A stretch of DNA of 20,390 nucleotides, from the IMG/VR virus record IMGVR_UViG_3300044655_002769, positions 1-20,390 of that record; one strand, 5' to 3'. This document shows, piece after piece, positions 1-20,390 of this stretch (its first letter is position 1; every line of letters begins with the position of its first letter). The notes beneath the pieces are model-generated. The model worked only from the letters and a program-made list of their open reading frames with translations, searched no databases and had not been told where the DNA came from. The stretch comes from a virus. The translations under genes and the position numbers were made by a program.

Positions 1-578
1 CAAATAAAAATTGCGATGCTCTTTGTACGGCTTTATGTACTATCCTACCAAAATACGAAATTAACACGCCAAATAGAATTGCAGCTTTCCTAGCTCAATG
101 CGGTCATGAATCAGGTGGATTTACAGTTCTACAAGAAAACTTAAATTATTCAGCTGAGGGATTAAGAAAAATCTTTCCTTCTAGATTTGCAACAGTGGCT
201 GCTGCTCAACCATATCATAGACAACCGGAAAAAATTGCCAATAAAATTTATTGCGATAGAATGGGTAATGGTCCAGAATCTTCAGGCGAAGGATACAAAT
301 TTCGTGGTCGTGGCGCGATTCAATTAACAGGCAAAGAAAATTATAGTAATTTTGCAAAATCAATTGGTAAATCTCTTGATGAAACAGTTGCATATTGCGA
401 AACATTAGAGGGAGCTATCTGTTCAGCGGCATGGTTCTGGACAACTCGTAAACTTAATGTATTCGCCGATTGTGGTGACATTCTTTCTATGACTAAAAAA
501 ATAAATGGCGGGACTATTGGAATCGAAGACCGCAAGAAACACTACGAACATGCATTGTATGAAATTAAAACGAGTTAA
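1..578 (+). CDS. GH19 chitinase-like endolysin (5' partial)
   Basis: The gene is cut by the left window edge. The reading frame is open from base 3, so about 192 residues are visible. Glycoside hydrolase 19-type lytic domain: the motif HESGGF (catalytic-type Glu at bases 108-110) is followed by ENLNYSAEGL, and GRGAIQLTGKENY lies further on; both blocks are hallmarks of phage GH19 endolysins related to chitinases. It probably cleaves the peptidoglycan glycan backbone at lysis. A GTG at 195 could be mistaken for a start but lies inside the domain, after the catalytic Glu. The gene ends two bases before a row of small membrane proteins that could act as holins, so this is a plausible lysis cassette. 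No N-terminal binding domain or signal can be judged because the start is missing. Confidence 0.88.
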   Translation, partial: NKNCDALCTALCTILPKYEINTPNRIAAFLAQCGHESGGFTVLQENLNYSAEGLRKIFPSRFATVAAAQPYHRQPEKIANKIYCDRMGNGPESSGEGYKFRGRGAIQLTGKENYSNFAKSIGKSLDETVAYCETLEGAICSAAWFWTTRKLNVFADCGDILSMTKKINGGTIGIEDRKKHYEHALYEIKTS

Positions 579-1443: not shown

Positions 1444-1887
1444 ATGAAAAAATATTTACAATTATTTTTCATTATGTGTTTTTCAGTAGGAGTTAATGCA
1501 ACACCATTGACGTTTGAATTTAAAGATCCATCATTTTCAGGAAATGGTTGGTCGGCTCAGGTTATAACTTTAGAACAAATTGAAGCGCAACGTAAACAAA
1601 AAATTAAAGACGATCAATTGGCAGCAATTGCTAAAGCCGAAGTTGCTGCAAATAATAGCAATTTATCTAAATTTTTAGTTAATGTTGAATCTAGAATTTA
1701 TGCTCAATTATCAAAACAATTAACTGATCAACTGTTTTCTGATACAGGAGCAACATCAGGGACAATGGATTTTCAAGGAACATCAATTAATTGGATTAAA
1801 ACAGCTAATGATGTTACATTAACAATTATGGAAACAAACGGTAATACAACAGATATTACTGTGCCAATAGGACAATTCGGATTCTAA
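1444..1887 (+). CDS. csgF: CsgF-like curli assembly factor
   Basis: 147 residues with a classical signal peptide (positively charged start, hydrophobic core, cut near VNA|TPL at residue 19). The mature N-terminus TPLTFEFKDPSFSGN has the pattern of CsgF (Escherichia coli TMTFQFRNPNFGGN), the segment that plugs into the CsgG pore. Length agrees with the family (138 in E. coli). The middle (residues 35-75) is a charged helix, and the C-terminus (residues 98-147) is a Thr/Ile-rich beta-type domain. In curli systems CsgF is secreted through CsgG and couples the nucleator to the pore. The next gene is CsgG-like, two bases on, which strongly supports the call. I know of no CsgE-like gene in this window. 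Confidence 0.82.
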   Translation: MKKYLQLFFIMCFSVGVNATPLTFEFKDPSFSGNGWSAQVITLEQIEAQRKQKIKDDQLAAIAKAEVAANNSNLSKFLVNVESRIYAQLSKQLTDQLFSDTGATSGTMDFQGTSINWIKTANDVTLTIMETNGNTTDITVPIGQFGF

Positions 1888-1888
1888 T

Positions 1889-2683
1889 ATGAAATATATT
1901 ATTTTATCATTATTTTTATTACTTTCTGGTTGTTCACAACTTGCTCTAGAATTAGCAGCAGAAGAACCAGTTTCTGTTAAACCAAGAGCAAATCTATCAG
2001 AAAAACTTCCTTTTCTTGAAGGGGATTCAATTCCTATTTCTGTGTACGAATTTACCGATAAAACTGGGCAACGTAAACCGTCTGATAAATTAGCTCAATT
2101 ATCAACAGCTGTTCCACAAGGCGCAGAATCTTTTGTCATTAAAGCTCTACAAGATTCAAAAAATTGGTTTAAAGTTGTTGAACGCGTCGGTTTAGATAGT
2201 TTAGTTAAAGAACGTCAATTAATTAGAAATCAAAGAGAAGTTTACGAAAAAACTGAAGCAAAACCATTAACTCCATTGATGGTTAGCGGATTAATAGTAA
2301 CAGGAAGTATATCTGGTTACGATTCTGACATAAGATCTGGCGGTATTGGTTTACGATTATTTAAATTAGGTTTTACTGATGAATATCGTGTAGATAAAAT
2401 TACTATTTCAATGAGAGTTATCTCAGTTGCAACTGGAGAAGTTTTGTTATCGGTAATAACAACAAAAACAATTTATAGTTTTGCGTCAGGTGGCGGAGCT
2501 ATGATGTTTATTGGAACTGGTAATGTAACTGCTCTTGAAGCGGAAGTTGGTGATGCTGTTAATGAACCAATCACCGAAGGAGTTAGAGTAGCTATTGAAG
2601 ATAGTGTTTATTCCATGATACTTGAAGGTGAAAAGAAAGGTCTCTGGAAATTTAAAAAAGAAATGCAACCATTCCGCATATAA
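1889..2683 (+). CDS. csgG: CsgG-like outer-membrane curli secretion lipoprotein
   Basis: 264 residues (E. coli CsgG 277). A lipoprotein signal with lipobox LSGC gives acylated Cys15. Diagnostic CsgG stretches are visible: PISVYEFTDKTGQRKP, LSTAVPQGAE, ALQDSKNWFKVVER, KERQLIR, GSISGYDSDIRSGGIG, VATGEVLLSV, EVGDAVNEP and GLWKF near the C-terminus. CsgG forms a nonameric outer-membrane channel that exports curlin subunits from the periplasm. The constriction loop differs: where E. coli has YPASNF before STAVPQ, this protein has SDKLAQL, so the Tyr and Phe of the narrow ring are replaced while a polar residue (Gln) remains at or near the Asn site. Start chosen at the ATG with the signal peptide. 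It sits between CsgF-like and curlin-like genes. Confidence 0.9.
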   Translation: MKYIILSLFLLLSGCSQLALELAAEEPVSVKPRANLSEKLPFLEGDSIPISVYEFTDKTGQRKPSDKLAQLSTAVPQGAESFVIKALQDSKNWFKVVERVGLDSLVKERQLIRNQREVYEKTEAKPLTPLMVSGLIVTGSISGYDSDIRSGGIGLRLFKLGFTDEYRVDKITISMRVISVATGEVLLSVITTKTIYSFASGGGAMMFIGTGNVTALEAEVGDAVNEPITEGVRVAIEDSVYSMILEGEKKGLWKFKKEMQPFRI

Positions 2684-2694
2684 AGGAAAAATAA

Positions 2695-3330
2695 ATGAAA
2701 AAAATACAAATATATTTAATTATGTTTGTTATGCTTTTTGCTAAATCTGTGTTAGCTAGTGACGTTTTTATTGAACAAATTGGAAGTTCTTCTGAAATTA
2801 AAGTAACTCAGCAAGGAACTTCAAATAGAATAGGTAGTTCTTTAACTCCTTCGTTTTTTGGTGGAGATAGTAATAAATTTACAATTGAACAAGTTGGCGC
2901 TGTTAATGAATTGGATTTATTAATTAATGGTAACAATACAAATGTAACATTAGAAACATATGGTGCTGGTAATATCGAAAGTATTATTTGCGGAAGTAAA
3001 ACTACACCAAATTCGTGCGATAGTTCTACAATTGATTATACAATATCAGGTAATAATAATAAAATTACTACAAATTTAGGAGCTGCTGATAAATCTGCTA
3101 CAAGTAAAATGAATATTTCTGGTAATAATAATATTGTTACCCATACAGGAACACATACAAGCACTCTTGGTAGTAAAATATCGGCAGATTTAACTCTTAT
3201 CGGAAATTCAAATAAAATTGATATGACTCAATCAGGAAGTTTGGATGAAAACATTAAAGTCACCAGCACAGGCAACAACAATAACATTAGCATTACTCAG
3301 TCTTCTGTTATTACTTTACTCGCCCCGTAG
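2695..3330 (+). CDS. curlin-repeat amyloid-like secreted protein
   Basis: 211 residues with a signal peptide (cut near VLA|SDV, residue 22) and an AAAGGAAAAA ribosome site. The mature chain is built of curlin-type strand-loop-strand units with Ile/Val-x-Ile-x-Gln and Gly-Asn-Asn-Asn: FIEQIG, IKVTQQGTSN, FTIEQVGAVNE, ISGNNNKI, ISGNNNIV, LIGNSNKIDMTQSG, GNNNNISITQ. It is poor in aromatic and charged residues, as are CsgA/CsgB. It is the likely cargo of the CsgG-like pore encoded just upstream. Two cysteines (about residues 99 and 108) in the middle are not typical of CsgA. The last 86 bases overlap the next gene in another frame. Whether it is a fibre subunit or a nucleator cannot be told. Confidence 0.8.
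   Translation: MKKIQIYLIMFVMLFAKSVLASDVFIEQIGSSSEIKVTQQGTSNRIGSSLTPSFFGGDSNKFTIEQVGAVNELDLLINGNNTNVTLETYGAGNIESIICGSKTTPNSCDSSTIDYTISGNNNKITTNLGAADKSATSKMNISGNNNIVTHTGTHTSTLGSKISADLTLIGNSNKIDMTQSGSLDENIKVTSTGNNNNISITQSSVITLLAP
3234..3239 (+). promoter_or_regulatory. ribosome binding site deciding the FecR-protein start
   Basis: AGGAAG lies five bases before the ATG at 3245, inside the curlin-repeat gene. It supports a start deep within the upstream reading frame, which is needed to give the FecR protein its signal peptide. Confidence 0.65.
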
Positions 3331-4324
3331 TTTTGGAGCAATTGGTAAAGTTTCTGAACAAACTGGAGTAGCTGAAATACAGCGAAATAAACAATCGCTA
3401 CCAAGTGCTGTTAATACAGAAATTGAATCTATGGATGTCGTGGTTACTGCAAAAGGTAAACTCGACATTACTTTTAATGATAATACCAAAGTTTCCGTTG
3501 GCGAACAAAGTAAACTTGTAATTGACGATTTTGTTTATGACGCTAAAAAATCCACAGGAAAACTTGGATTAAAAATTGCATTAGGAACTGTTCGTTATGC
3601 CTCTGGGCAAATAGCAAAACATAATCCACAAAATGTTGGAATACAAACTCCAACGGCTACCGTTGCTGTTCGTGGTACAGATTTTTCTACAACAGTAGAT
3701 GAATTAGGTCAAAGTACATTTATTCTGTTACCAAGTTGCGATTTATCTGGTTGCGTAACAGGAGCTATTGAAGTTTCTACAGATGCAGGTTTTGTTTTAT
3801 TAAACCAAGCATTTCAATCAACTACTGTTTCTGATAAAACAAATTCTCCATCAAAACCAACTATAATTAATATTGATCCATTAAATATTAACAATAGCTT
3901 AATTGTATCTTCTCCAGTAAAAGCCGCTGACACAACAGTAACAGTTCAACAAATAAAAACTGGATTAGATGTTAATTTTCTTGATCAAGATTTTTTAACG
4001 TACAAACAATTAAGTATCAATTTATTAGATGTAAAAACTGATTTAGATAAAAATAAATTAGATGAAAAATTATTAACAAATGCATTAGACGAACCGATTG
4101 ATGATATTAGTGATATGCTACCTGGATATGATGAAAAAACAAATTTAAAATATAATACAAATGGAAAAGCATTAGTTCTTGATAAAGAAGCAACCAAAAA
4201 TAAATTTCAATTAAAAGTAGATAAAAATGCAGATGCAACTTTAAAATTAAATCAAGAAGGAACTGTTTTAACTCAAAATATTAACATGGGCACAACAACG
4301 AAAATAGATATTACACAAAAATAA
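3245..4324 (+). CDS. secreted FecR-domain protein with curlin-like C-terminus
   Basis: 359 residues. Signal peptide with core TLALLSLLLLLYS and cut near FGA|IGK (residue 32), encoded almost entirely within the overlap with the curlin gene. Residues about 33-150 form a FecR domain: glycan-binding-like beta repeats, VVVTAKGKLDITFNDNTKVSVGEQSKL, IALGTVRYASG and the TPTATVAVRGTDFST motif. FecR domains of this stand-alone type occur in secreted proteins, often next to CHASE2 cyclases, and one such cyclase is encoded four genes downstream here. The remainder is a Leu/Asp-rich helical-looking stretch (240-310). The last 30 residues (LKLNQEGTVL, KIDITQK) resemble curlin strands. It could anchor or nucleate the fibre; this is inference. 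Confidence 0.78.
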   Translation: MKTLKSPAQATTITLALLSLLLLLYSPRSFGAIGKVSEQTGVAEIQRNKQSLPSAVNTEIESMDVVVTAKGKLDITFNDNTKVSVGEQSKLVIDDFVYDAKKSTGKLGLKIALGTVRYASGQIAKHNPQNVGIQTPTATVAVRGTDFSTTVDELGQSTFILLPSCDLSGCVTGAIEVSTDAGFVLLNQAFQSTTVSDKTNSPSKPTIINIDPLNINNSLIVSSPVKAADTTVTVQQIKTGLDVNFLDQDFLTYKQLSINLLDVKTDLDKNKLDEKLLTNALDEPIDDISDMLPGYDEKTNLKYNTNGKALVLDKEATKNKFQLKVDKNADATLKLNQEGTVLTQNINMGTTTKIDITQK

Positions 4325-4327
4325 TAT

Positions 4328-5077
4328 ATGGATAAAAAATACCAAAGCATTTTTATTAGCGATATACATTTAGGAACAAAAGATTCTAAAGCAATTGAAT
4401 TAATTGATTTTTTAAAAAATAATACTTGCAATAAATTGTATCTTGTTGGAGATATAATTGATGGATGGAAAATACAACAAAATAAACTTAAATGGAAACC
4501 TAGTCATACAAAATTAATTCATAAATTTTTATCTTTATCGAGGAAAGGAACTGAGGTAATATACATAACAGGGAATCATGATGAATTTATTAGACCAATG
4601 GTTAATCTTAACGTCACCTTTGGTAAAATTTCAATTCATAATCAATATGAACATAATGGAATTGATGGTAAACGCTATTTGGTAACTCATGGAGATTTAT
4701 TTGATGGAATTACTAGGCTTGCTCCATGGTTAAGTTTTCTTGGAGATAAAGGCTATGATTTAATTTTATCATTAAATAATAAATTTAATTGGGTAAGACA
4801 TAAATTGGGATTTGGTTATTGGAGCCTAAGTAAATATTTAAAACATAAAGTTAAAAAAGCTGTCGATTTTATGTTCCAGTTCGAAATAAATTTAACAGAC
4901 TATTGCAAAAAACGTGGATATGACGGCGTTATCTGCGGACACATTCATCACGCGGAAATAAAAGAAATTAATGGTGTAACATATATGAATGATGGAGATT
5001 GGGTAGAATCATTAACGGCTTTAGTCGAACATCATGATGGTAGATGGGAAATTATAACATATAGTAAGGAGGAATAA
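4328..5077 (+). CDS. PlcP/LpxH-like metallophosphoesterase (phospholipid remodelling candidate)
   Basis: 249 residues, full length. Calcineurin-like metal site: SDIHLG (D12, H14), GDIIDGW (D42), GNHDE (N83, H84), THGD and CGHIHH (203-208) are all intact. The C-terminal half, GYWSLSKYLKHKVKKAV, YDGVICGHIHHAEI and NDGDWVESLTALVEHHDGRW, is typical of the COG2908 branch that includes PlcP rather than LpxH proper. PlcP enzymes cut the head group from phospholipids to give diacylglycerol under phosphate shortage and are usually followed by a glycosyltransferase (Agt), as here. Soluble or membrane-peripheral; no signal peptide. Start ATG follows the FecR stop by three bases without a clear Shine-Dalgarno. 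LpxH-like lipid A enzyme activity is the alternative. Confidence 0.82.
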   Translation: MDKKYQSIFISDIHLGTKDSKAIELIDFLKNNTCNKLYLVGDIIDGWKIQQNKLKWKPSHTKLIHKFLSLSRKGTEVIYITGNHDEFIRPMVNLNVTFGKISIHNQYEHNGIDGKRYLVTHGDLFDGITRLAPWLSFLGDKGYDLILSLNNKFNWVRHKLGFGYWSLSKYLKHKVKKAVDFMFQFEINLTDYCKKRGYDGVICGHIHHAEIKEINGVTYMNDGDWVESLTALVEHHDGRWEIITYSKEE

Positions 5078-5244
5078 TGTATATTTTAGTGGCATTACAA
5101 GCAGTAGCAGCATTAGGAACTAGTCTTTTTTGGCAACCAATTGGCGATTTTAGTTCGTATGAATCTTGTAAAGTAGCAATGGAACAATTACATAAATCAA
5201 AAGAGCATAGAGAAGGTGAAATGTATGTTTGCCTAAAAAAATAA
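5077..5244 (+). CDS. 55-aa hypothetical between PlcP-like and Agt-like genes
   Basis: 55 residues. It starts in a TAATG overlap with the metallophosphoesterase stop and has a strong AAGGAGG site at 5067-5072. The N-terminus (MYILVALQAVAALGTSLFW) is hydrophobic, either a signal-like segment or a short membrane anchor. The rest is charged, with two cysteines (31 and 52). It ends one base before the glycosyltransferase start. Not recognised; the position suggests an accessory to the lipid-modifying pair. Confidence 0.6.
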   Translation: MYILVALQAVAALGTSLFWQPIGDFSSYESCKVAMEQLHKSKEHREGEMYVCLKK

Positions 5245-5245
5245 T

Positions 5246-6247
5246 ATGAAAAAAACTATCTTAATAATAACAGACAATTTACCGAACCAAATTAATGGTG
5301 TGGTAACTACATTTAACAATTTAAAACGTGTTGGTGAACAAGAGGAGTTTACTTTTGAATTTATAACTCCTCTGGATTTTAAACATATTAACATGCCAAA
5401 ATATCCAGAAGTTAAATTAAGTTTTCCTTTTGGATTAACTAAGAAAATTAAAAAAATAAATCCAGATTTTATTCATATAGCAACAGAAGGTACTATTGGA
5501 ATTGCAGCTAAATTGGCGTGTAAGAAAAATAAATGGAAATATAACACGAGTTATCACACGAATTTCCCAGAATTCGTTAAAAAAATTTACGGAATACCAG
5601 AAAAAATTACATACAAATTTTTACGTTGGTTTCATAATCGTTCATATAAAGTTTTAACAACAACCAATACTATGGTTCAAGAATTAAAATCTAATGGATT
5701 TAAATGTGATGTTATTTCATGGACTAGAGGTATTAATAGAGAAGAATTAACTCCAACTAAACCAAAAGAAAATAGAGAACAAATTATATTGTTATCTGTT
5801 GGTAGAGTTTCTAAAGAAAAGAATTTAGATGTATTATGTCAACTATCAACTAATCCGCAATATTACATTCAAATTGTCGGAGATGGTCCATATAGAAAAA
5901 AACTTGAAAAAAAATACCCATTGGTAGAATTTGTTGGTTATAAATCTGGATCAGAATTAGCCGATTATTATGTTAATGCTGATGTATTTTGCTTTCCAAG
6001 TAAAACCGATACATTTGGAATTGTAATGATTGAAGCAATGTCATTGGGATGCCCTGTAGCTGGATATCCAGTTGCTGGTCCAATTGATGTTATTGAATCT
6101 GATGTTAATGGTTACATGGATGAAAATTTTGAAAACGCTATATTAAAATGTTTATCTCTTGATAGACATAAAGTTTATGTTAGCTCATTCAAATGGACTT
6201 GGGAAAATTGCTGGAAAATATTTAAAGAAAATCTTGTTCATAAATAA
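5246..6247 (+). CDS. GT4-family glycosyltransferase, Agt/SQD2-like
   Basis: 333 residues with a GT-B fold. The N-terminal domain has ITDNLPNQINGVVTT, PEVKLSFPFG, HIATEGTIGIAAK and SYHTNFPEFV; the C-terminal nucleotide-sugar domain has LLSVGRVSKEKNL, GDGPYRKKLE, FCFPSKTDTFGIVMIEAMS and PVAGPIDVI. This is the pattern of the family that makes glycolipids from diacylglycerol (Agt, SQD2/SqdX and relatives). Bacterial members commonly sit next to a PlcP metallophosphoesterase, as this one does. Predicted to act at the inner membrane, transferring a sugar to diacylglycerol. It is a little shorter than typical members (about 350-400). The donor sugar cannot be told from sequence; an alternative is transfer to lipid A or a polysaccharide. 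Confidence 0.85.
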   Translation: MKKTILIITDNLPNQINGVVTTFNNLKRVGEQEEFTFEFITPLDFKHINMPKYPEVKLSFPFGLTKKIKKINPDFIHIATEGTIGIAAKLACKKNKWKYNTSYHTNFPEFVKKIYGIPEKITYKFLRWFHNRSYKVLTTTNTMVQELKSNGFKCDVISWTRGINREELTPTKPKENREQIILLSVGRVSKEKNLDVLCQLSTNPQYYIQIVGDGPYRKKLEKKYPLVEFVGYKSGSELADYYVNADVFCFPSKTDTFGIVMIEAMSLGCPVAGYPVAGPIDVIESDVNGYMDENFENAILKCLSLDRHKVYVSSFKWTWENCWKIFKENLVHK

Positions 6248-6272
6248 TGTTTTAATATAACTTGAGGTAATA

Positions 6273-7031
6273 ATGAAAAAAATTGTTTTAGCTTTATGTC
6301 TACTATTTTCTACAGCTGTTCTTGCAAATCCAATCGATGACAAATGTTCACATTTTGCAACTTGGGGTGCTCCGCAAATTAAAACTGAAGGCGATAATCA
6401 ATATATCTGCAAAACCGGATATGCTGTTAATTTAAATTATAAAACCAAAGTCCCGTATTTTGTTATTGAACATATTACAGCTGATCACCTAAAAAAAGCA
6501 GTTGGTAGAAAAGATGATTTTCGTGAAGATGCAGAAGTTCCTGCTGAATACCGCGTAACATTAAAAGATTATGTTGGTTCTAACTTAGATCGTGGACACA
6601 TGGCACCCGCAGCAGATTTCGTTTATGATGCTAAAGTAATGAGCGAATCATTTTTCCTTGATAACATGATGCCTCAAAGTCAACCATTAAATCGCGGAGC
6701 ATGGAAATTACTTGAAGAAAAAACCCGCGACCTAGTTGCTCATGGCGATGTTTATGCTATTACCGGAACAATTTATGAGGGCGAATACAAAACTATTGGA
6801 AATAAAGTTGGAGTTCCCACTCATATTTACAAAGTAATTATTCAACCAAGCAAAGAAAGAATGATTGCATTTTTATTCCCTAATGAAAAAGTCGACCCAA
6901 AACAATTGGCAAAATATATTGTTCCTGTTGCTGATTTAGAAGTTAAAGCTGGTGTTGATTTTTCTCCGGCAATTCCAGAAAATTTAAAAGCATTAGAAGC
7001 AGTGGCAGCGAAATATGAAGATTGGTTCTAA
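6273..7031 (+). CDS. secreted DNA/RNA non-specific endonuclease (NucA/EndA type)
   Basis: 252 residues, with a TTGAGG ribosome site. Signal peptide with core VLALCLLFSTAVLA, cut near residue 18. The beta-beta-alpha metal nuclease motif DRGHMAPAADF (D106 to H109, catalytic His) and NMMPQSQPLNRGAW (metal-binding Asn131) are intact. Cysteines at about 25 and 46 may form a disulfide, fitting an exported enzyme. It degrades single- and double-stranded DNA and RNA in the periplasm or outside the cell. Its 3' end overlaps the cyclase gene by 17 bases. The role in a virus is open: clearing extracellular DNA, attacking competing DNA at entry, or nucleotide supply. Confidence 0.9.
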   Translation: MKKIVLALCLLFSTAVLANPIDDKCSHFATWGAPQIKTEGDNQYICKTGYAVNLNYKTKVPYFVIEHITADHLKKAVGRKDDFREDAEVPAEYRVTLKDYVGSNLDRGHMAPAADFVYDAKVMSESFFLDNMMPQSQPLNRGAWKLLEEKTRDLVAHGDVYAITGTIYEGEYKTIGNKVGVPTHIYKVIIQPSKERMIAFLFPNEKVDPKQLAKYIVPVADLEVKAGVDFSPAIPENLKALEAVAAKYEDWF

Positions 7032-9030
7032 ATTAAAAGCATTATTAAGTCCTTATTGGGCATTGGTAACTCTACTGCTAGTTTTAGCAGTTAGGGTTGC
7101 CGATCCATCATTTGTTGAATCGATTCGTCTTCGCTATTTCGATACATTAATTACATCTAAAGCTCCAACAGAAAATAATGTTTATACAGTTAACATTGAC
7201 GAAGCTGCATTAGATAAGTATGGTCAATGGCCATTTAAACGCGATTTTTATGCAGATACAATTGAAACATTATATTTACATAATGCAGGATTAGTTGTAT
7301 TTAATGTTTTAATGAGCGAAACTGACCGTTTAGGCGGAGATGATAAATTAGAACAAACTTTAAAAGTATTACCTGTTATTTTACCCAGTGTTCCTGCTGG
7401 TAAAACTAAAAATACTCCAAAGAATCCTGGATCGGTAATTTTAAATCCAGAATATCAAGATAAAATAGTTAGCTATCCTGGAATTATTTCCAATATTTCT
7501 GCATTAGAAAATAGTTCTGCTGGTGTTGGAACTGTTAATACGCTACCGGAAATTGATGGAGTTAATCGCAGAGTTCCATTACTAACATCAGTTAACAATG
7601 TATTGTATCCAGCATTAAGTCTAGAAACGTTAAGAGTTCTTGCACAGGATACAACATTTCAAGTAAAATTAAATGAATTGGGTGTAGAAAAACTGCGCAT
7701 TCCACAATTTGGTCCAGTTACAACAGATAGTCTAGGTAGAATCTGGATTGATTGGAGTCAAAAAAATCAAGCAGTAAGCATTACTGATATTCCTGCTGAT
7801 TTTGGTGGAGCTGTGGTTATTGTTGGAACAACTGCTGCTGGTATTGTAAATCCATTATCAACACCAATTGGAGCAGTTTATCCGCAAGATGTTCAGGCGG
7901 CTGTTATTTCTACTATGATTAATGGCGTAGTTATAGAACGTCCTGATTGGACAGATATGGCTGAAACATTAGCTATATTCCTAGGAGGGATCTTAGTTGT
8001 CGTTGGATCGCGCTGGACGTATGCATTTATCCCAGTAATACTAACGTTAGGTGCAAGTCATTTCGCAGCTGCATGGGTCTTTCAGAGCTATAATATGCTC
8101 ATTGACATTACAGCGTTTGTAGTTGGAATTGCATTAGTTTACGGGCATGCATATACCGTTAAATTTCTTTCTGAATATTTACAAAAAGAGCAAATTAAAA
8201 AACAATTTGGCGGATACGTTTCCCCTGTAATGGTTGAAAGATTACAAAAAAATCCAGATTTAATTAAATTAGGCGGAGAAAGAAAATTAATCTCCTCTGT
8301 TATGACGGATCTTCGCGGATTTACTACTTTAGGCGAATCATATGGTGATGATGTTGAGGGTTTAACTCAAATCATGAACGATTATATGACTGCTATTTCT
8401 GAACCTGTATTAAAAAATGATGGATGTATTATTAAATTTATTGGCGATGCAAGTTTACACATTCATGGTGCTCCATTAGATGATGAAAATCATGCGAAAG
8501 TTGCTGTTCAAACTGGATTAGAAATGGTTGAGGCTGTTACTCAATTTAATAAACAGTTAATTTCTCTGGGTAAACCTCCAGTTGGTATGGGTGTTGGTGT
8601 AAATTCTGGACCAATTTTAGTAGGTAACATTGGATCGAAATATAGATTCGGTTATGATGTACTAGGAGATACTGTATCATTAACTTCTAGATTAGAAGGG
8701 CAAACAAAAGGATATGGCGTGTTACTAATCCTTGGGGAAACAACAGCTGAATTAGTTAAAGATGATTTTAAATTAGCAGAATTGGATTGCATTGCAGTTA
8801 AGGGTAAACATATTGGTGTAAAAATGTTTACAGTAGCCGAAACTTTACCTGCGCATCAACAATATTTGAATGCATATTATGCAGGAGATTGGGGATCTGC
8901 TAGAGTTATATGTAAACATTTAGCTGAACAACCTGGACCTCTACAACATTATTATAAATTAATGCTAGAAAGAATCTCAGGCGAATGTCCAGCTAACTGG
9001 GATGGTGTATTCCACGCCCTCTCCAAGTAA
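7015..9030 (+). CDS. CHASE2-domain class III adenylate/guanylate cyclase
   Basis: 671 residues, the largest gene here. One N-terminal membrane helix (about 13-28), an extracytoplasmic CHASE2 sensor (about 40-310, with DEAALDKYGQWPF), three closely spaced helices (about 319-385), and a class III cyclase domain (about 425-610). Metal-binding Asp432 (TDLRGFTTLGE) and Asp478 (KFIGDA) are present, with Lys474 as in adenylate cyclases, Asp552 (VLGDT) and Arg559. The transition-state Asn of the usual VNLASR motif is Ser555 (VSLTSR), which could lower activity. Predicted to sense a periplasmic cue and make cAMP or cGMP. It starts inside the nuclease gene (17-base overlap) and ends flush against the convergent gene. 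Confidence 0.88.
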   Translation: MKIGSKLKALLSPYWALVTLLLVLAVRVADPSFVESIRLRYFDTLITSKAPTENNVYTVNIDEAALDKYGQWPFKRDFYADTIETLYLHNAGLVVFNVLMSETDRLGGDDKLEQTLKVLPVILPSVPAGKTKNTPKNPGSVILNPEYQDKIVSYPGIISNISALENSSAGVGTVNTLPEIDGVNRRVPLLTSVNNVLYPALSLETLRVLAQDTTFQVKLNELGVEKLRIPQFGPVTTDSLGRIWIDWSQKNQAVSITDIPADFGGAVVIVGTTAAGIVNPLSTPIGAVYPQDVQAAVISTMINGVVIERPDWTDMAETLAIFLGGILVVVGSRWTYAFIPVILTLGASHFAAAWVFQSYNMLIDITAFVVGIALVYGHAYTVKFLSEYLQKEQIKKQFGGYVSPVMVERLQKNPDLIKLGGERKLISSVMTDLRGFTTLGESYGDDVEGLTQIMNDYMTAISEPVLKNDGCIIKFIGDASLHIHGAPLDDENHAKVAVQTGLEMVEAVTQFNKQLISLGKPPVGMGVGVNSGPILVGNIGSKYRFGYDVLGDTVSLTSRLEGQTKGYGVLLILGETTAELVKDDFKLAELDCIAVKGKHIGVKMFTVAETLPAHQQYLNAYYAGDWGSARVICKHLAEQPGPLQHYYKLMLERISGECPANWDGVFHALSK

Positions 9031-17519: not shown

Positions 17520-17890
17520 TACGACTCCATTAAAATGACATAGACGATAACAAGATATGTTAAATAATGTAAATACTGATCACACCCTAATTGAACCCAA
17601 AACTTTTTATCTGATACATCTGATAAACCGTAATGCGCTTTAAAATAATCAATAATATAATGAACGTTAATTTCAATGTATACAATTATGAATAAAAGAA
17701 TTGGATCTACGAATGGAAGTAATACTACGCCTGTCGCAAGACCTTGTTTGATACTATGTTTTGCTCCAGTAAAATTTCCAAATATACCTTTACATTTTAC
17801 TTCTTCGTATGTTTGATTGATAAAATCTATATAGAAATGTTTAGTAAACAAGAGAAAAAAACATATAAAAATTATATTATATTGATGCAT
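17519..17890 (-). CDS. DUF3307-family integral membrane protein
   Basis: 123 residues from ATG at 17890 (TAATG overlap, GGGAAAG upstream; an in-frame TTG further upstream is rejected). Four predicted membrane segments. Family motifs are visible: KHFYIDFINQT near the start, GAKHSIKQGLATGVVL, HYIIDYFKAHYGL, and FWVQLGCDQYLHYLTYL at the end, giving conserved His and Asp in the membrane. DUF3307 proteins occur in bacteria and many phages; function not established. Confidence 0.75.
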   Translation of the reverse strand: MHQYNIIFICFFLLFTKHFYIDFINQTYEEVKCKGIFGNFTGAKHSIKQGLATGVVLLPFVDPILLFIIVYIEINVHYIIDYFKAHYGLSDVSDKKFWVQLGCDQYLHYLTYLVIVYVILMES

Positions 17891-18111
17891 TATAAACTTT
17901 CCCAATCAACCCATTTTGTTAATTCAATATTAACTGCTTCGTGCGTAATATTACCATTATTATCATAACTTTCTGGAATATACACTGTAATCCCATTTAC
18001 TGCTGCACCAAAATCATACATTTCAACAGAAACATCAAGTTCTGCGTTGTACTTTTTTAATAGATTTTTTAAATCTCTTTTAAACGATCGTTCAATAACT
18101 TCATTAACTTC
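17890..18111 (-). CDS. hypothetical protein
   Basis: About 73 residues from ATG at 18111 (MEVNEVIERS), three bases after GGTGG. The frame is open further up to 18141 (MAPFIFWWL...), which would add a hydrophobic start but has no ribosome site. A basic helix (RSFKRDLKNLLKKYNAEL) is followed by strands (DVSVEMYDFGAAVNGITVYI) and an acidic end. Not recognised. The stop overlaps the DUF3307 start. Confidence 0.5.
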   Translation of the reverse strand, partial: EVNEVIERSFKRDLKNLLKKYNAELDVSVEMYDFGAAVNGITVYIPESYDNNGNITHEAVNIELTKWVDWESL

Positions 18112-18171
18112 CATAAGCCACCAAAAAATAAAAGGTGCCATAAAATAAGGCAACTAAAATAAATTGCAATT

Positions 18172-18507
18172 TTAAAAAATAAAAGTTGCATCTTCCATGT
18201 AATATGTTTTTTCTTTAACGTCATCATTAACGTCGCTAAGATATAACCCAGAATATTTATTACCTGAAATTAACTCTTTAACATTATCTTTTAAAAATTT
18301 AGATGCAAATTGTGGATAATCTAATTCTTCTTTTTTGTCAATTTTATACATATATTCAACACAACGTTCAATTCTTGATGCTTCTGATTGAATACTATCG
18401 TTGTTAAAAGGTTTATCTAATTTTTTTAATCTACCGAATGCAACTACAGTAAATGCTTGTTCTAATCCATCAACTGATGGTCTTTTAATTTCTGCTGTTT
18501 TTTTCAT
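18172..18507 (-). CDS. hypothetical protein
   Basis: 111 residues, TAGGAATATATC before the ATG. Mostly helical and charged (SEASRIERCVEYMYKIDKK, FASKFLKDNVKELISG), with no signal or membrane segment. Not recognised; cytosolic early-region protein by position. Confidence 0.58.
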   Translation of the reverse strand: MKKTAEIKRPSVDGLEQAFTVVAFGRLKKLDKPFNNDSIQSEASRIERCVEYMYKIDKKEELDYPQFASKFLKDNVKELISGNKYSGLYLSDVNDDVKEKTYYMEDATFIF

Positions 18508-18516
18508 GATATATTC

Positions 18517-18609
18517 CTAGGCTTTATTGATTTTGTGTTTAAAATGATAGACTGTCAACCAAACTGTTGATGCTATTAAAATACCAGATATGATTGCTAT
18601 TAAAATCAT
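18517..18609 (-). CDS. 30-aa single-helix membrane peptide
   Basis: 30 residues with AAGGTGATT before the ATG. MILIAIISGILIASTVWLTV is one membrane helix, followed by a basic tail (HFKHKINKA). It sits between the lipoprotein and the 111-aa gene in the same direction, with an overlap-free fit (8 and 9 bases). Function unknown; comparable to small phage regulators of membrane enzymes. Confidence 0.55.
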   Translation of the reverse strand: MILIAIISGILIASTVWLTVYHFKHKINKA

Positions 18610-18618
18610 ATAATCACC

Positions 18619-19170
18619 TTATCGTTTACCAGCTGAAGATAACCGACTTATATTCATACTAGAACTAGGTCTGCTAATAGGAGCTGATGGTTTGTATGAA
18701 TTGGTAGAATTAAATTTACTTGTATCCATGTAATTTGTTTTGGGGGCAGCGGCTACTGAAGCAGGAGCAACTTGATTAATTGTAACATTTTTAGTAACAT
18801 TAGTTACAGTTCGCGAACTAGAACCGTAATCGTGATTATAACTAGGAGCTGAATTATTAGAAGAATTTCCTGAGCTACCAATAGCATGACCAATTAATCC
18901 ACCAACTAACATATTAGTCATAGTATTATCATGTTGTTGCTGTACTACTACTGGTTGTTGTGCAGCAGGTTGTTGAATAACCACCGGAGCTTGCGCTTGA
19001 ACAGGTTGTTGCGCTTGTTGTTGAATTTGCTGCTGTTGAACTTGTTGATTTTGTAGGATTTGTTGTTGCTGAACAAGAATTTGTTCAGTTTGTTTTTTAG
19101 CCTTTTCTTCTTCGCTTTCGCCACAAGCAACAAGACTTAAAATAGCTAATGCTAAAATCATTTTTTTCAT
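18619..19170 (-). CDS. Gln-rich lipoprotein with glycine zipper
   Basis: 183 residues from ATG at 19170 (TTGAGGAATTATATA before it; the in-frame TTG belongs to the ribosome site). Lipoprotein signal ending in LVAC gives lipidated Cys16. Residues about 20-80 are a low-complexity Gln/Val/Ala tract (runs of QQQ). A short MLVGGLIGHAIGSSG glycine-zipper helix follows at about 86-100, then a Ser/Asn-rich tail. It is the first gene after a perfect promoter, hence likely early and abundant. By analogy with phage lipoproteins such as T5 Llp it could block reinfection; that is only inference. Confidence 0.68.
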   Translation of the reverse strand: MKKMILALAILSLVACGESEEEKAKKQTEQILVQQQQILQNQQVQQQQIQQQAQQPVQAQAPVVIQQPAAQQPVVVQQQHDNTMTNMLVGGLIGHAIGSSGNSSNNSAPSYNHDYGSSSRTVTNVTKNVTINQVAPASVAAAPKTNYMDTSKFNSTNSYKPSAPISRPSSSMNISRLSSAGKR

Positions 19171-19211
19171 TATATAATTCCTCAATAAGTTTAAAGTTAC
19201 GGTACAGTTAT

Positions 19212-19240
19212 ATTATACTAGATTAGACATATTATGTCAA
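19212..19240 (-). promoter_or_regulatory. perfect sigma70-like promoter for the lipoprotein unit
   Basis: TTGACA (19240-19235), 17-base spacer, TATAAT (19217-19212), preceded by AAGTGC. About 42 bases before the lipoprotein start and beginning at the stop of the 48-aa membrane gene. Confidence 0.85.
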
Positions 19241-19247
19241 GCACTTT

Positions 19248-19394
19248 TTAAATATTTATTTTTTGTGCATATGAAATTAAGTGGAGAATTCCCGCTGCAG
19301 CGAATAAACCGCAAATAGAAACGATAGCAAAACTAAAAATTAATCCCACGATATAATACACAACATATAACATTGTTTGAGATGATTCTTTCAT
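19248..19394 (-). CDS. 48-aa membrane protein
   Basis: 48 residues, GGAATTTTT before the ATG. Two predicted helices, MLYVVYYIVGLIFSFAIV (about 8-25) and CGLFAAAGILHLI (about 28-40), end in a short polar tail. It lies between a terminator and a promoter, so what transcribes it is not clear; read-through from the virion gene is possible. Function unknown. Confidence 0.55.
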   Translation of the reverse strand: MKESSQTMLYVVYYIVGLIFSFAIVSICGLFAAAGILHLISYAQKINI

Positions 19395-19418
19395 AAAAAT
19401 TCCATAAATTTTATGTAC

Positions 19419-19443
19419 AAAAAAAGCCTGCGAACAGGCTTTT
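19419..19443 (-). terminator. rho-independent terminator of the virion protein gene
   Basis: Nine-base stem AAAAGCCTG/CAGGCTTTT around a four-base loop (CGAA on the plus strand), followed on the minus strand by a run of seven T. It lies 17 bases after the virion gene stop. Confidence 0.88.
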
Positions 19444-19459
19444 CTTAATTATCCCAAAA

Positions 19460-20390
19460 TTAAATTTCAGGGAAAGTTCTATCGTCTACAGCATCAGTTG
19501 TAATTGAACCAATAGCAACTAATGTTTCGTATTGAACGCGACCTGAACGACCACCAGTTCCTACAGTTTTCTTAACCCAGCCAGCGTGAGCACCTTGTGA
19601 TTCTGCTGATGTACCAATACCTAAGATCGCTGTAGCAGTAGCTGCTTCGGCAGTTGTTAATGTTAATTTATGTGCAGCACCAACACCAACACCAGTAATA
19701 TCAAGTTGAGTACCTAAAGTTGCATTAGATGCACTTGTAGCAAGCGCAATTGTATTAGCTGAAGAATTAATAATATAATATGTATTTCCGCTAGTCAAAC
19801 CAACAACAGATGTTCCGCCGCCATTAGAATAAACAGCTGCATCACCAGTAACAAATAAATGACCTGGAGCATAAGTAACAGTATTTGCAGTAGCACTTAC
19901 GTTTGCGCTTGCGAAAGTAATATATGGCGAACCAATAGTAATTGCTGGAGCAGAAGCATAAGCTCCTCCAGTAGTAGTAATTGTTACACCAGAAACAGCT
20001 CCATTAGAAATAGTCGCATTAGCAGCAAGAGTACCGCTTGCAACAGAAACAGTTGGAACTTCTTTATATTTTGTTCCAGCAGTTCCAACAGAAATAGATG
20101 TTACATTAGCTCCACCGCTTGCGATTTCTGTAGTGTCAACGCCATAAGTGTTCTGCATTGCTGTATAACCAGTTTCACCATTAGTTCCACCATTTCGGTA
20201 AACATATTTTGGTTGTTCGTTAATTTTAACGAATGAAATTGGTAAAGTAGTATTAGAAGTTCCACCAAAAACATCTGATAATGTTAAATATGTGTTATTT
20301 GCAATAGCTGCAACGCGGTTTTTTGTATACAAATCTGAATGAATACCGATAATATCACCGATTTCCAAATTTGCTGTAAATAATGTTCCA
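19460..20390 (-). CDS. virion structural protein with beta repeats (5' partial)
   Basis: The frame is open to the right edge, so at least 309 residues are visible and the true start is outside (the TTG at 20368 is internal). The N-terminal visible part LEIGDIIGIHS and VAAIANNTYLTLSDV resembles repeats common in T4-like and jumbo phage virion proteins. The middle has a GTKYKEVPTVSVAS and GGAYASAPAITIGSP pair of short repeats. The segment VTGDAAVYSNGGGTSVVGLTSGNTYYII with NTIALATSASNA is a domain seen in tail and decoration proteins. Ala/Thr/Gly rich, less AT-rich than neighbours. Tail fibre, decoration or neck role cannot be resolved. Confidence 0.7.
   Translation of the reverse strand, partial: GTLFTANLEIGDIIGIHSDLYTKNRVAAIANNTYLTLSDVFGGTSNTTLPISFVKINEQPKYVYRNGGTNGETGYTAMQNTYGVDTTEIASGGANVTSISVGTAGTKYKEVPTVSVASGTLAANATISNGAVSGVTITTTGGAYASAPAITIGSPYITFASANVSATANTVTYAPGHLFVTGDAAVYSNGGGTSVVGLTSGNTYYIINSSANTIALATSASNATLGTQLDITGVGVGAAHKLTLTTAEAATATAILGIGTSAESQGAHAGWVKKTVGTGGRSGRVQYETLVAIGSITTDAVDDRTFPEI

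Follow-up and report, generated by a model that had tools for sequence, protein, structure and literature searches.

A PlcP–Agt-like gene pair in a phage genome fragment and its proposed role in lipid remodelling

The window, i.e., the whole stretch of 20,390 bases that was analysed, is a fragment of a virus record. An endolysin gene marks its phage origin (Table 1), and its minus strand carries further phage genes, with matches to DNA ligase, T4-type RNA ligase/kinase, exonuclease and baseplate/head-closure proteins. The endolysin, the T4-type RNA ligase and the baseplate/head-closure matches identify the DNA as virus-encoded and not as host contamination. The T4 Gp23 capsid protein is also encoded on six records that carry plcP, and with it the pair (G019, G022, G026, G027, G028 and G033), and plcP is present in a phage isolate, Mosig. 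A megablast search against 50,697 phage records returned no match to the window, which has no close relative at the DNA level among named phages.

Two enzyme genes, encoding a plcP-like phosphoesterase and an agt-like GT4 glycosyltransferase, lie within a compact plus-strand run (1444-9030). Both open reading frames are intact and begin and end exactly where a first, sequence-only reading had placed them. This reading described the two genes as nearly adjacent, which holds insofar as they share a strand and a tight run, but the 168-nt gap between them contains an additional ORF that had escaped notice. From the FecR-domain gene to the cyclase gene, overlaps do not exceed 17 nt and gaps do not exceed 25 nt, from which co-transcription of this part of the run is inferred to be likely.

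Table 1. Coordinates of the genes in the window and of the loci from other records discussed in the text
Feature	Record	Position	Strand	Length (aa)	Remarks
Endolysin	window	195-578			
csgF	window	1444-1887	+		upstream half of the curli cluster around the pair
csgG	window	1889-2683	+		upstream half of the curli cluster
Curlin-repeat protein	window	2695-3330	+		upstream half of the curli cluster
FecR-domain gene	window	3245-4324	+		curli cluster; stops 3 nt before plcP
plcP-like phosphoesterase	window	4328-5077	+	249	COG2908-type metallophosphoesterase
Small ORF	window	5077-5244	+	55	between plcP and agt
agt-like GT4 glycosyltransferase	window	5246-6247	+	333	
Endonuclease_NS	window	6273-7031	+		DNA/RNA non-specific endonuclease; signal-peptide-like N-terminus; between agt and cyclase
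CHASE2-adenylate/guanylate cyclase	window	7015-9030	+		last gene of the curli-type cluster flanking the pair
plcP-agt-pstS-Porin_O_P	L391	1448-5898			
plcP-agt-pstS-Porin_O_P	L392	1518-6020			
pstS-Porin_O_P-plcP-agt	L393	1773-6287			
GT2 behind viral plcP	L010	2853-3563			
GT2 behind viral plcP	L032	8907-9620			
plcP and agt of a near relative	L089 (G011:C1)	17773-19538			
Distant PlcP-side homologue	L003 (cyanophage S-SRM01)	4007-4711			
plcP-agt locus	L219 (P. aeruginosa plasmid pHOU1-1)	70078-77806			

Clusters of curli (type VIII secretion) genes have been described in pelagiphages and methylophages, including HTVC008M and Melnitz (PMC7029224, PMC9599517), and the window shares with them the order csgF-csgG-curlin-FecR-...-cyclase. 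The difference lies between the FecR-domain and cyclase genes, where Melnitz possesses a second curlin-repeat gene and HTVC008M a gene for a hypothetical protein, whereas the window has plcP, the small ORF, agt and a nuclease gene. A functional link between this nuclease and the plcP-agt pair is unproven. It is of a secreted type, and it could conceivably release phosphorus from DNA, which is untested.

The small ORF is tightly fitted between its neighbours, sharing 1 nt with the plcP stop (TAATG) at its start and ending 1 nt before the ATG of agt. Its product (MYILVALQAVAALG...CLKK) has a hydrophobic N-terminus and two cysteines, and no convincing family was found for it in Pfam or PHROG. In most viral loci that have a gap between plcP and the glycosyltransferase gene, a short ORF fills it, either of 55-60 aa (with a hydrophobic start and two cysteines), a basic one of 43 aa or the MYILV type of the window, the first two of these being found with GT4 and GT2 alike. 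None of the 26 bacterial plcP-agt gaps contained an ORF of at least 20 codons. As a mere guess, the small protein might be anchored in the membrane and assist the pair.

The phosphoesterase matches the Pfam families Metallophos (1.3e-11) and Metallophos_2 (9.4e-11). It had been described as having PlcP-like features, which a clear place within true LpxH would have refuted, and the phylogeny on which this description was to be judged supports it. In a maximum-likelihood tree of 69 proteins, including 12 LpxH with that of E. coli among them, LpxH is split from the PlcP side with a support of 100/100, its branch being very long. On the opposite side of this split, the window protein falls within a viral clade (96/95), and bacterial PlcP, both of plcP-agt loci and of P. 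aeruginosa, are located on that side too. Consistently, its score against the LpxH model TIGR01854 is 37.8 bits, for a cut-off of 190.35. The P. aeruginosa locus L219, which we take from its neighbour genes to be the plcP studied in this species, comes from a plasmid record bearing plcP-agt, and its neighbours look chromosomal. Cyanophage S-SRM01 encodes a distant homologue (36%) without an adjoining GT4, deposited as a UDP-2,3-diacylglucosamine diphosphatase; this protein and that of L300 form long branches whose exact placement is unsure. The closest bacterial homologue found for the window PlcP, at 59%, is from Hyphomonadaceae and relatives.

The metal ligands of the window PlcP (D12, H14, D42, N83, H121, H205 and H207) are all present and align with D8, H10, D41, N79, H114, H195 and H197 of E. 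coli LpxH. The residue that distinguishes both groups is LpxH Arg80, which is an arginine in all 29 LpxH and a histidine in all 98 PlcP-side rows; the window protein has His84 at this position, within a GNHDE motif (82-86) which replaces the LpxH GNRDF motif in most PlcP-side rows. An AlphaFold2 model of the window protein (pLDDT 79.9, with low confidence for residues 127-141 and 167-176) has LpxH as nearest solved folds, with a TM of about 0.57; alignments of structure models were restricted to the window and IMG/VR or GTDB loci. The shared COG2908-type fold and metal ligands, combined with the split in the tree and at the discriminating residue, thus indicate the same superfamily fold but an enzyme group different from LpxH. 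The identification as LpxH itself is ruled out by the TIGR01854 cut-off, the motif and the tree. In addition, a predicted user of diacylglycerol as gene neighbour, taken as a criterion for PlcP, is found one small ORF downstream in the form of the Agt-clade GT4. Codon comparisons gave a median dN/dS of 0.061 for PlcP, i.e., purifying selection.

The second enzyme matches Glycos_transf_1 (2.7e-25) and Glyco_transf_4 (2.4e-14). In a tree of 60 proteins, containing five other GT4s for comparison and whose bootstrap had not fully settled, a support of 100/97 sets bacterial Agt together with viral GT4s apart from these five, and the viral GT4s form a single clade with the same support. E. coli WaaG, WaaB, WcaI and WcaC could not be used as outgroup because their branches were saturated. 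The grouping with plcP-linked Agt, and not with polysaccharide enzymes, is the outcome that the earlier proposal depended on, and a polysaccharide GT4 is ruled out by the same tree. The "Agt/SQD2 type" initially suggested is supported for its Agt part only, the relatives found being Agt and SQD2 being absent from the tree. The closest bacterial homologue found for the window GT4 (46%) is encoded by a 1.2-Mb genome.

The Agt of SAR11 strain HTCC7211, named GTcp (334 aa), has had its functional residues mapped by mutation (PMC8231724). Counterparts of all 14 residues are present in the window GT4, namely G18, G82, G85, H104, T160, R161, R187, K192, D255, T256, F257, G258, E263 and W319. This correspondence rests on motifs and conserved columns, not on the GTcp sequence itself. 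The motifs of the GTcp group, GRVAXEKN and FPSXTDTFG, appear as GRVSKEKN (186-193) and FPSKTDTFG (250-258), and the GTcp H104-D256 dyad, R163 and W320 correspond to H104-D255, R161 and W319. H104 and D255 are predicted to form the catalytic dyad, and H104, R161 and W319 to contribute to a diacylglycerol site. In GTcp, the D256E substitution abolished more than 90% of the activity (PMC8231724); a glutamate occupies this column in 18 of 65 viral Agt relatives, while the window enzyme has an aspartate. The model of the window GT4 (pLDDT 92.7) matches the GT-B enzymes BshA, PimB', PimA and MshA, as expected for a GT-B fold, and the gene is under purifying selection (median dN/dS of 0.138, codon comparisons). 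Both enzymes are therefore identified at the level of their family with their active-site residues preserved, and the initial statement that their motifs are intact proved correct.

The association of the two genes extends well beyond the window. When the window phosphoesterase was used as bait in IMG/VR, 490 relatives were obtained, of which the best 80 were kept; among the 49 distinct viral plcP genes in this set with at least 1.3 kb downstream, the next gene encodes a GT4 in 28 cases and a GT2 in the other 21, with no locus having neither. A search with the Mosig PlcP gave 56 distinct loci, in which a GT4 was assigned 21 times and a GT2 11 times, while the rule applied left 24 without assignment; several of these 24 carry an Agt-like GT4 that overlaps the end of plcP and was missed because the rule required a gap of at least 0. 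Conversely, with the GT4 alone as bait, a same-strand PlcP is encoded upstream in 61 of 62 viral loci (those with at least 1.3 kb upstream, not deduplicated) and immediately upstream in 27 of the 30 best alphaproteobacterial matches. P. aeruginosa, Roseomonas and Sphingomonas plasmid records show the same arrangement, and adjacent plcP-agt pairs are found in gammaproteobacterial genomes (in the GTDB sense). The pairing is thus far from chance and recurs in phages and bacteria. No GT4 homologue was found in phage Mosig, which hence seems to bear plcP without this GT4.

Several loci depart from the arrangement in the window. The GT2 that takes the place of the GT4 behind viral plcP has about 237 aa (e.g., L010 and L032), and a fatty acid desaturase gene lies near plcP-GT2 in some viral loci. 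In a near relative of the window (L089), plcP and agt are separated by about 1.2 kb, and there is a second, short match to the 3' end of plcP.

The closest known system is the lipid remodelling pair of bacteria (PMC4796936, PMC8231724, PMC9804370). As in SAR11 HTCC7211, Erythrobacter NAP1, Agrobacterium and P. aeruginosa, plcP precedes agt on the same strand, and the likeness extends to the families assigned by the trees and to the active-site and predicted diacylglycerol-site residues. The viral pair differs in being phage-encoded, in often having a short ORF in a gap which is without one in bacteria, in the replacement of GT4 by GT2 in part of the viral loci, in showing no Pho box and, for the window, in its location within a curli cluster. 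Regarding the Pho box, the sequence-only reading had pointed to PhoB-box-like sites upstream as a check. A search for TGTCAY-N5-TGTCAY-like sites revealed no enrichment over chance in the window and no clear site at the pair, and in phage Mosig (L002) there was likewise neither enrichment nor any site between plcP and pstS. Similarly, a promoter scan returned sites no more numerous than chance. The Pho-box search is a loose test that bears on regulation only, and a phage promoter may drive the pair instead.

The idea that the pair serves phosphate supply has gained support from the neighbourhood of plcP in related phages, where genes for pstS and a phosphate-selective porin adjoin plcP-agt. 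In Mosig, plcP has a divergently oriented neighbour that is annotated as phosphate ABC transporter and whose product scores 143 bits against TIGR02136 (PstS subfamily), below the cut-off of 206.6. Among 25 long viral records, 24 of which carry plcP, seven encode PstS-type proteins (on records of 74-335 kb), each on the plcP strand and 0.2 to 4.3 kb away, and all four of those tested exceed the PstS equivalog cut-off. Three loci combine plcP-agt with pstS and Porin_O_P (PF07396), the phosphate-selective porin family, in either order (Table 1). In another one (L390), the order is csgF-csgG-curlin-FecR-pstS-plcP-agt-cyclase, so that pstS-plcP-agt sits where the window has plcP-agt. Overall, 20 of the 174 distinct viral loci with plcP have a pstS, which in each case shares the strand of plcP; the other 154 have no pstS in the flanks examined, many of which are short, and the count is hence a lower bound. 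Strand agreement alone is weak evidence because T4-like phages keep long same-strand blocks. While these genes are reminiscent of the phosphate genes of T4-like phages (pstS etc.), the plcP-agt pair would target phosphate already in the host membrane and not its uptake.

In Phaeobacter, lipid replacement requires PlcP, and the SAR11 plcP complements its loss (PMC4796936), while SAR11 agt expressed in E. coli yields MGDG and GADG (PMC4796936; PMC8231724). Assignment of the enzyme families and of the pathway is supported by the data above, and we propose, with a probability of roughly 0.78, that the pair is a phage-encoded lipid remodelling module feeding freed phosphate to the phage, its substrates, the sequential action of both enzymes during infection and its benefit being inferred. 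The PlcP-like enzyme would cleave host phosphatidylethanolamine or phosphatidylglycerol into diacylglycerol and a phosphoalcohol, and the Agt-like GT4 would transfer glucose, galactose or glucuronic acid from a UDP-sugar onto this diacylglycerol. The host membrane would keep its lipid and lose phosphorus. Further phosphatases would presumably free inorganic phosphate from the phosphoalcohol, and a phage replicating in a phosphorus-poor cell could use this phosphate to make nucleotides and DNA. In phages with a GT2, another glycolipid would be made, whereas those with plcP alone, such as Mosig, would either depend on the host or end with diacylglycerol. On the basis of published per-cell figures (PMC4796936), halving the phospholipid of Phaeobacter MED193 would release about 2.7e5 phosphorus atoms, approximately the content of one 141-kb genome (2 x 141,461 nucleotides), and halving that of Dokdonia about 9e5, approximately three such genomes. 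With one to three extra genomes per cell, as a rough estimate, the gain would be real but not large, and part of the benefit may come from a changed membrane. The phage can also obtain phosphorus by recycling nucleotides of host DNA.

The benefit is only inferred to be a gain of phosphate and not a modified envelope. The same enzymes and products could serve to change the membrane, affecting permeability, lysis or adsorption or excluding rival phages, with phosphorus release being incidental. This explanation, which we consider unlikely without dismissing it, draws on the location of the pair among surface and secretion (curli) genes, on the about fourfold lower adsorption of phage DSS3-Phi2 to Ruegeria devoid of aminolipids (PMC9938194) and on a per-cell phosphorus gain that may be small. 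However, curli genes flank the pair in a minority of loci only (csgG in 11 of 170 distinct ones), and the nameable recurrent neighbours in related phages are the phosphate genes pstS and Porin_O_P.

The two other explanations assign different substrates to the enzymes. It is highly improbable that the phosphoesterase acts on a nucleic acid or nucleotide signal, with modified phage DNA or a virion protein as the target of the GT4: although a cyclase and a nuclease are encoded in the same run, calcineurin-like enzymes are diverse and phages often use glycosyltransferases on DNA, the pair occurs without a cyclase in the examined flanks of other phages, the identically paired orthologues of bacteria act on lipids, and the GT4 retains its predicted diacylglycerol-site residues. 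Barely tenable, in turn, is a joint modification of the outer membrane glycan by an LpxH of the lipid A pathway and an LPS or polysaccharide glycosyltransferase. The annotation of the Mosig and S-SRM01 homologues as UDP-2,3-diacylglucosamine hydrolase or diphosphatase and the nearest solved folds point in this direction, and LPS-type glycosyltransferases do occur in phages (PMC7029224), but the score far under the LpxH cut-off, the fully supported tree split, the change of Arg80 to His, the position of the GT4 in the Agt clade and a pairing identical to bacterial plcP-agt all contradict it.

With the lipid remodelling module proposed here, a pathway known from bacteria takes on a viral form that is new, and no report of a viral PlcP was found in the literature searched, preprints and most subscription journals being outside its scope. 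The gene pair is common in environmental phages and sometimes lies beside phosphate-uptake genes, which suggests that viruses mine host membrane phosphorus. More broadly, and here we see the odds as even, phages may possess a widespread and modular phosphate-mining programme, consisting of a phosphate-selective porin, periplasmic PstS, and PlcP with GT4 or GT2 converting phospholipid to glycolipid, these two enzymes often being accompanied by a virus-specific small protein encoded between them, by which the infected cell would be rebuilt as a low-phosphorus one; the viral "lpxH" of metagenome surveys would then largely be misnamed PlcP. Such viral lpxH genes have been listed in two surveys (PMC9611531, whose table also lists a desaturase, and PMC10653327) and, judging from the motif found here, may be PlcP. 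If so, a likely naming error would be corrected. Part of the idea is testable in phage Mosig, which has PlcP without GT4 and whose host is culturable. If the enzymes act like their relatives, membrane phospholipid would be a phosphorus source tapped directly by phages and a new target in viral phosphorus metabolism, and in low-phosphorus waters the lipids set free by lysis would have to be read differently.
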